Source of the DNA: Candidatus Magasanikbacteria bacterium RIFCSPHIGHO2_02_FULL_48_18
Lineage (GTDB): Bacteria; Patescibacteriota; Patescibacteriia; Magasanikbacterales; UBA922
Direction: 5' to 3'
Length of the DNA stretch: 32,110 bases
NCBI GenBank assembly: GCA_001784285.1
Contig: MFQC01000001.1
Location: 93,780 to 125,889, forward strand
Part shown: piece after piece, positions 1,517 to 2,235 of the stretch
Numbering within the stretch: position 1 is the stretch's first letter
Layout: every line of letters begins with the position of its first letter
Program-made: the position numbers and the translations under genes
The notes under the pieces: model-generated
Seen by the model: only the letters and a program-made list of their open reading frames with translations
What the model was told of the DNA's origin: nothing
Databases searched by the model: none

Positions 1517-1586
1517 GGGTTTATAGCTCAGTTGGTTACCTGCCTGCCGGCAGGCAGGGAGCGCCCCGCTGAATAGCGGGGAGGTC
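1517..1586 (+). pseudogene. Degenerate tRNA-like sequence interrupted by a 20-bp palindrome and lacking a T-arm
   Basis: gggtttatagctcagttggtta, then CCTGCCTGCCGGCAGGCAGG, then gagcgccccgctgaatagcggggaggtc; no GTTCGATTCC T-arm or matching 3' acceptor follows. Confidence 0.6.
1539..1558. repeat. 20-bp perfect palindrome CCTGCCTGCCGGCAGGCAGG
   Basis: Read directly; sits at the D-loop position of the tRNA-like sequence. Confidence 0.9.
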
Positions 1587-1609
1587 AGAGGATGATTTTC
1601 AATAATAAT

Positions 1610-1683
1610 GGGCGATTAGCTCAGATGGTTAGAGCGCTACATTGACATTGTAGAGGTCACTGGTTCGATTCCAGTATCGCCCA
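1610..1683 (+). tRNA. tRNA-Val(GAC)
   Basis: Acceptor GGGCGAT/ATCGCCC, anticodon arm CTACA-TTGACAT-TGTAG, T-arm with GGTTCGATTCC. Confidence 0.93.
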
Positions 1684-1717
1684 CTATGGGGCGATATAGG
1701 TTGTGTTCCATTTACAC

Positions 1718-1775
1718 GGGCGTGTAGCTCAGTTGGTTAGAGCGCCCCGCTGAATAGCGGGGAGGTCCCTGGTTC
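1718..1775 (+). pseudogene. 3'-truncated tRNA-like sequence with an 8-nt anticodon loop
   Basis: gggcgtgtagctcagttggttagagcg matches the 5' half of the adjacent tRNA-Ile; anticodon arm CCCCG-CTGAATAG-CGGGG; homology lost after ccctggttc. Confidence 0.65.
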
Positions 1776-1802
1776 ATTGCAAAAGGTAATCATAAAATAT
1801 GA

Positions 1803-1876
1803 GGGCGTGTAGCTCAGTTGGTTAGAGCGTTACACTGATAATGTAAAGGTCCCTGGTTCGATTCCAGGCACGCCCA
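1803..1876 (+). tRNA. tRNA-Ile(GAT)
   Basis: Acceptor GGGCGTG/CACGCCC, anticodon arm TTACA-CTGATAA-TGTAA, complete T-arm. Confidence 0.93.
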
Positions 1877-1877
1877 C

Positions 1878-2156
1878 ATGAAAATAGGAGGAACAATCTA
1901 TCTACTCCAAAGCCTGAACGGAAAACACAGGTATCTTGGCGTTACCTCTGATTTGCAATCCCGTCTCATTGAACATACACGGGGGAGCACACAAACAACA
2001 CGCGATAAAGGACCGTGGCGTCTTTTGCAATGTTGGCATTTTGATTCGTTGCAACGTGCAAAACAAATTGAATATAAAATCAAAAAAATGAAACACAAAC
2101 TCACTGTCGAATATGTAACCTACATAATTGATAGGTTAGAGCGCCCCGCTGAATAG
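1878..2156 (+). CDS. GIY-YIG domain endonuclease-like protein (92 aa)
   Basis: GGTIYLLQSLNGKHRYLGVTSDLQSRLIEHTRGSTQTTRDKGPWRLLQCWHFDSLQRAKQIEYKIKKMKH matches the small single-domain GIY-YIG pattern. Confidence 0.85.
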   Translation: MKIGGTIYLLQSLNGKHRYLGVTSDLQSRLIEHTRGSTQTTRDKGPWRLLQCWHFDSLQRAKQIEYKIKKMKHKLTVEYVTYIIDRLERPAE

Positions 2157-2191
2157 CGGGGAGGTCCCTGGTTCGATTCCAGGCACGCCCA
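2134..2191 (+). pseudogene. 3' portion of a tRNA-like sequence, overlapping the 3' end of the GIY-YIG ORF
   Basis: ggttagagcgccccgctgaatagcggggaggtccctggttcgattccaggcacgccca; no 5' acceptor or complete D-arm. Confidence 0.7.
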
Positions 2192-2235
2192 CATATTGTC
2201 TCTCTAAGATATCCCCAGCAAAACTATTTTTTCAC

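Follow-up and report, generated by a model that had tools for sequence, protein, structure and literature searches.

Small GIY-YIG nuclease genes beside live and dead tRNA copies in Patescibacteria and Bacteroidota: a probable family of minimal homing-type cassettes

Analysis of the window, the whole 32,110-nt stretch of DNA considered here, revealed a live tRNA-Ile gene followed on the same strand by the ORF of a small GIY-YIG nuclease, with pieces of disrupted tRNA genes on either side (Table 1). The sequence AGGTCCCTGGTTCGATTCCAGGCACGCCCACAT occurs twice, identically, at 1847-1879 and 2162-2194, a spacing of 315, in agreement with an earlier note on this DNA that had reported 33-bp direct repeats of the tRNA-Ile 3' end. 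For an exact 33-nt repeat within 32 kb, chance is ruled out by length. The same note had the ORF starting 2 nt past the tRNA discriminator, with its ATG overlapping the first repeat, and its C-terminus encoded by the second tRNA-like copy; the positions of the discriminator and start codon bear out the former, and the final seven codons and the stop, all of which lie inside the second copy, the latter. As a description of the repeat, the 33 exact nucleotides stand but are incomplete, the distal copy being longer and carrying a hairpin in place of the anticodon arm.

Table 1. Features of the tRNA-Val/tRNA-Ile region of the window
Feature	Position	Strand	Remarks
Dead tRNA-Val, 5' piece, decayed	1517-1594	+	GGGTTTATAGCTCAGTTGGTTA (1517-1538), CCTGCCTGCCGGCAGGCAGG, GAGCG, hairpin, AGGTCAGAGG
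D-loop palindrome of dead tRNA-Val, CCTGCCTGCCGGCAGGCAGG	1539-1558	+	From sequence
Swapped-arm hairpin of dead tRNA-Val	1564-1581	+	Same as in the tRNA-Ile pieces; followed by AGGTCAGAGG at 1582-1591
Live tRNA-Val (GAC)	1610-1684	+	84% identical to the window tRNA-Ile; body differs from the dead tRNA-Val piece
Dead tRNA-Ile, 5' part ending in T-loop	1718-1775	+	Hairpin CCCCGCTGAATAGCGGGG (1745-1762) substitutes for anticodon arm; sub-threshold Rfam tRNA match, 21.8 bits
41-nt repeat, left copy	1735-1775	+	GGTTAGAGCG-hairpin-AGGTCCCTGGTTC; repeat analysis
A+T-rich spacer	1776-1802	+	From sequence; similar spacers in loci L040, L043, L049 and L056
Live tRNA-Ile (GAT)	1803-1877	+	ARAGORN; Rfam RF00005, 78 bits; discriminator A1876
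GIY-YIG nuclease ORF, 92 aa	1878-2156	+	ATG at 1878, at the tRNA 3' end; terminates within dead tRNA copy
Dead tRNA-Ile, D-loop to 3' end	2134-2194	+	Hairpin 2144-2161; 2162-2194 identical to 1847-1879
41-nt repeat, right copy	2134-2174	+	Repeat analysis

The sequence replacing the anticodon arm is a perfect 18-nt GC hairpin, CCCCGCT-GAAT-AGCGGGG, identical in both dead tRNA-Ile pieces and with no further occurrence in the window's genome beyond the window. Joined together, the left and right pieces would make one complete tRNA-Ile lacking an anticodon, split by the spacer, the live tRNA-Ile and the ORF, with a 41-nt duplication. The dead tRNA-Val piece upstream contains tRNA segments of 22 nt and 10 nt that are identical to the tRNA-Val of a relative (G028) and is, to judge from its sequence, a relic of an earlier event at tRNA-Val. 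The live tRNA-Val is unlike this adjoining piece and closely resembles the tRNA-Ile, a sign that the tRNA-Val gene of the window has itself been replaced. At locus L040 the live tRNA-Ile reads GGGCGAC...GTCGCCC, but the dead ends read GGGCGTG and CACGCCC, are able to pair together and come from a different tRNA-Ile; the live gene is thus distinct from the gene that was split.

The ORF product matches PF01541 with an E-value of 6e-11 and a score of 43 bits, against a cut-off of 22.6 bits. Profile score, catalytic Tyr/Tyr/Arg/Glu and fold all assign it to the GIY-YIG superfamily, and Y8, Y19, R29 and E65 do not vary among 41 sequences drawn from several phyla. The best matches of the predicted model (pLDDT 87) are UPF0213 protein BH0048 and Slx1, and sequence searching agrees; a profile search of the window protein detected no recognised DNA-binding domain. 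Values of dN/dS for six measurable pairs range from 0.08 to 0.19, and by this measure the protein is under purifying selection. No site-specific recombinase is present between the repeats, where the nuclease is the sole plus-strand ORF of at least 60 aa. Neither a group I nor a group II intron ribozyme was found when positions 1400-2400 of the window were compared with Rfam, which returned only tRNA, YrlA and Plastid-ycf2 matches, and a group I intron was accordingly discarded as an explanation. Carriage as phage or plasmid cargo was likewise set aside, similarity searches having found no phage, plasmid or viral-contig relative that might serve as a vehicle.

A search of 59 related genomes with the window protein gave 94 non-redundant GIY-YIG ORFs. 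At 58 of these, from related Patescibacteria, a tRNA gene lies on the same strand within 160 bp of the GIY-YIG domain; on the opposite strand the number is 0. About 1.5% would be expected by chance, a rough estimate based on about 45 tRNAs per Mb, giving p of about 1e-80. ORFs of the ParE family (PF05016) in the same genomes, a small control, are tRNA-adjacent in 0 of 23 cases. A cross-phylum scan by protein similarity, taking one genome per species, produced a similar picture: at 61 of 80 loci a tRNA gene lies within 160 bp on the same strand, and at none does one lie on the opposite strand. These loci span Bacteroidota isolates including Flavobacteriaceae, Ignavibacteria, Chlorobiota and several Patescibacteria lineages, and the closest relatives among named records are Candidatus Magasanikbacteria. 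With duplicates removed, the pooled set comprises 168 ORFs, of which 113 are tRNA-adjacent; the other 55 lack a tRNA on their own strand within that distance. The cassette, for which the earlier note had suggested looking at other tRNA genes, is thus present at genes of 18 isotypes in several phyla.

The majority of loci are in metagenome-assembled genomes. An identical layout is nevertheless found in deposited isolate genomes, among them Flavobacterium ranwuense, Xanthomarina spongicola and Mangrovibacterium marinum, which argues against an assembly artefact. Many GIY-YIG matches fall within a few hundred bases of contig ends (for example, G029:C17:180, G022:C29:241 and G019:C2:81), as expected if such repeats break assemblies. 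In the protein tree, target isotypes are grouped, with 47 changes compared with a mean of 80 and a minimum of 75 in 300 shuffles, and repeated target switches are apparent. Site-specific elements that now and then move to a new target would be expected to cluster in this way. Because the alignment is short, no weight was placed on individual branches.

The tRNA-adjacent loci adopt two layouts. The first, seen at 37 loci, has the live tRNA upstream, with the ORF starting near its 3' end; the second, partial copy, where found, is usually the 3' part and lies downstream. The other layout, seen at 76 loci, has the live tRNA downstream and the dead copy, usually the 5' part, upstream. One tRNA copy is live and the other is partial or bears palindromes, partial copies being present at most adjacent loci, and the matched segments of the two are frequently identical over 20-75 nt. 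Dead pieces occur on both sides at some loci (the window, L040, L049 and L056), and one locus (L019) consists of two tandem 302-bp units. The duplicated part is the tRNA itself, partial or, in one case, whole.

These layouts bear on the likeness to an att duplication drawn in the earlier note. The direct repeat of the tRNA 3' end would be accounted for if an integrase-type element had duplicated an att site there and then decayed, its ORF surviving by chance. We consider this origin very improbable and have rejected it, since the thing duplicated is a tRNA in live and dead copies, many relatives duplicate the 5' part instead, the inserts hold a GIY-YIG ORF only, and the repeats themselves carry hairpin-swapped anticodon arms. 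Plain tandem duplication of a tRNA gene is insufficient alone, given the same-strand association with GIY-YIG ORFs. The second repeat of the window is not an ordinary tandem tRNA, an outcome that would have told against the note's account of the locus; it belongs to a type of dead copy seen with GIY-YIG ORFs across phyla.

Comparison of two genomes of the same genus provides an empty site. In G036, downstream of tRNA-Val come the ORF and a 3' part of tRNA-Val with a hairpin; in G022, the same tRNA-Val is joined directly to the homologous flank. The difference is a 328-bp insert, with flank identities of 482/539 and 536/696. For a homing endonuclease element, a given site should be found both filled and empty among close relatives, as it is here. 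This tRNA-Val pair is the one clean same-genus empty site found; the tRNA-Thr locus of the two genomes, considered as a second pair, is actually an ORF-less relic. A tally made by eye of 27 relatives with comparable tRNA-Val/Ile loci gave 16 empty sites, 5 occupied ones and 6 relics lacking an intact ORF; the window adds one more occupied locus. Empty alleles, whose absence from relatives the earlier note would have taken as a refutation, do therefore exist, and inserts of a few hundred bases holding the GIY-YIG ORF only agree with its view of an element without an integrase. Its proposal of homing-type insertion into a tRNA gene gains from the empty site, the patchy occupancy and the other tRNA targets; for cleavage and mobility it keeps the standing of an inference.

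Truncated GIY-YIG ORFs are also found among the loci. A simple BLAST search of the window's genome placed partial copies, mostly ORF-less, near about 8 of its 45 tRNA genes, some of these matches being short or possibly belonging to a neighbouring tRNA. A tRNA-Trp relic in this genome retains an apparent start of a GIY-YIG ORF.

The strict same-strand adjacency and the purifying selection could also reflect small GIY-YIG genes that serve the host and are co-transcribed with tRNAs, the nearby tRNA copies having arisen by ordinary tandem duplication and then been lost. Some GIY-YIG genes are indeed fixed in place across genera, downstream of tmRNA. Against such a non-mobile origin, to which we assign a low probability, stand the patchy presence, the empty site, the many tRNA targets, the replaced tRNAs, the truncated ORFs and the relics. 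As separate observations, GIY-YIG ORFs lie downstream of tmRNA and immediately before an apparent infC in three genomes (L127, L095 and L096), in some cases with tandem hairpin repeats between, and tmRNA is also near GIY-YIG in L123 and L175. A second GIY-YIG ORF in the window's genome (L002; G000:C11 around 49100-49300) is inside a 16S rRNA gene. The insert there is 306 nt long with 19-bp inverted ends, CCCCACACCTTTTATGCTT and AAGCATAAAAGGTGTGGGG, and, placed at a helix tip with complementary ends, it looks like a nuclease-encoding rRNA intervening sequence.

The anatomy of the cassettes, their recurrence at 18 isotypes, the empty site, the ORF-less relics, tRNA replacement and purifying selection are read directly from the genomes, and our confidence in anatomy and recurrence is much higher than in any mechanism. 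That tRNA-gene DNA is cut, that homing occurs and in what order the steps took place we infer from the sequences. Overall, we think it probable that the loci represent a widespread family of minimal homing-type cassettes that invade tRNA genes and restore the tRNA that they break. Each cassette would encode a GIY-YIG nuclease of one domain and would either carry or, on insertion, generate another copy of its target tRNA, in part or in full. The nuclease would cut an unoccupied allele of its own tRNA gene, and repair of the break would copy the occupied allele, bringing in the ORF. The resident tRNA gene would thereby be split or displaced, the copy flush with the ORF taking over, and the displaced copy would stay alongside in dead form, its loops usually containing palindromes. 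Later decay of the ORF would leave pairs of dead and live copies. A homing insertion would be expected to destroy its own recognition site; the displaced copy is disrupted, often by loop palindromes, but an intact tRNA copy still adjoins the ORF, and no change protecting this live copy from its own nuclease is visible.

An alternative, which we judge unlikely, is a cleave-and-rescue drive in which the nuclease destroys resident copies of an essential tRNA so that the linked rescue tRNA becomes necessary, spread occurring by addiction rather than gene conversion. The nuclease always shares its strand with a live tRNA, a further copy of which is dead or partial; the resident tRNA has been replaced by one of different body at L040 and in the window; and ORF-less dead/live pairs persist, all of which such a drive would explain. 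Rescue copies nevertheless often match the dead copy outside its inserts, leaving no visible resistance to cleavage.

Homing alone does not account for the palindromes or for the precise swap of the anticodon arm. Among 49 palindromic insertions in dead copies, 43 are in, or border, the D-, anticodon- or T-loop (p about 3e-14 relative to uniform placement). In many dead copies a hairpin of 16-19 nt substitutes exactly for the anticodon arm. In Patescibacteria and in Bacteroidota alike, the 20-mer CCTGCCTGCCGGCAGGCAGG recurs at one and the same position of the D-loop, and one locus (L195) has a tRNA-Arg copy identical at 75/75 positions except for 20-bp palindromes in its D-loop and anticodon loop. 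Slx1 is a structure-specific nuclease. These placements, with UPF0213 and Slx1 as the closest structural matches, are what would be seen if the palindromes were themselves the mobile part, short hairpins inserting at the loops of DNA hairpins, the GIY-YIG protein mobilising or accepting them through its action on extruded hairpins of tRNA genes, and dead tRNAs being the product. We regard this too as improbable, because some cassettes have no detected palindrome and because, of eight palindrome sites in the window's genome, four are in dead tRNA copies and four are away from tRNAs and GIY-YIG genes, suggesting independent repeats. With half of the sites outside dead tRNAs, palindromes are treated here as an associated, unexplained feature of the homing-type cassettes.

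Several palindromes merit separate mention. In L211 (G000:C11 ~38306) and L212 (C8 ~84886), the 20-bp palindrome lies between inverted repeat arms of the GTACGAAC type that are unrelated to tRNA, which suggests a general preference for hairpin loops. In L210 (G000:C10 1519-1536), the same palindrome falls within what seems to be an open protein-coding frame and may be an in-frame insertion. A Bacteroidetes contig (L189) contains three extra 94-nt tRNA-like matches around its GIY-YIG ORF, above the Rfam gathering score; these are presumably tRNA copies with loop insertions, liable to be annotated as tRNAs.

A bolder proposal, possible if doubtful, is that the cassettes constitute a cross-phylum class of chromosomal selfish elements in which a Slx1-like single-domain nuclease would recognise tRNA genes through DNA hairpins, cut their loops, spread with a rescue tRNA and leave palindrome-filled dead tRNAs. 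If true, this class would amount to a cleave-and-rescue system that occurs in nature, with tRNA genes as its target.

Genes for tRNAs are essential and, in small genomes such as these, often single-copy. A selfish nuclease that time and again broke up such genes and substituted others would account for dead tRNAs, for swapped tRNA bodies and for many small GIY-YIG genes of no assigned role in Patescibacteria and Bacteroidota, and the loop-placed palindromes point to a process dependent on DNA hairpins that is apparently undescribed. Isolate Flavobacteriaceae with the same layout make the idea testable. We found no description of tRNA-linked GIY-YIG elements in Patescibacteria or Bacteroidota in the openly licensed literature, which leaves novelty unproven.

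By sequence, the closest solved relatives of the window protein are of the UPF0213/YhbQ type (PDB 1zg2 and 1ywl), 1zg2 being also the best fold match. Like it, these are single GIY-YIG domains of about 90-107 aa, and both were deposited as hypothetical proteins. Short, dispersed hairpin and double-hairpin elements, some inside genes, are repetitive components of mitochondrial DNA (PMC2800124); their likeness to the palindromes described here is one of form, and the latter are bacterial and are found in dead-tRNA loops beside GIY-YIG ORFs. At a Caldiarchaeum tRNA-Thr, a partial tRNA copy and the live tRNA flank the inserted ORF of a pNOB8-type element (PMC3293823). That element encodes a putative recombinase and involves archaeal tRNA introns, whereas the cassettes encode a GIY-YIG nuclease.

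SegB of phages T4 and T6 and its relatives are free-standing GIY-YIG homing endonucleases located near tRNA genes and implicated in the cutting of tRNA-containing DNA (PMC13096335). Co-location of a GIY-YIG nuclease with tRNAs is shared with the cassettes, but the SegB setting is a phage genome, and the account consulted describes no paired live and dead tRNAs or loop palindromes (PMC13096335). Searching found no phage relative of the window protein.

The closest established logic, by analogy, is that of the mobile ORFs (mORFs) of fungal mitochondria, for example Glomus atp9 (GIY-YIG), atp6, cox2 and nad3 (LAGLIDADG), and Allomyces atp6. There an endonuclease ORF has entered an essential gene along with a substitute for its 3' part, and the native 3' end is displaced downstream (PMC3630166). 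The tRNA cassettes likewise duplicate part of the host gene and keep the displaced native part, live and displaced parts being distinguishable at L040. They differ in that mORFs occupy protein-coding mitochondrial genes, whereas the cassettes are found at bacterial chromosomal tRNA genes of many isotypes, in both 3'-part and 5'-part layouts, and are accompanied by dead copies with palindromes in their loops.
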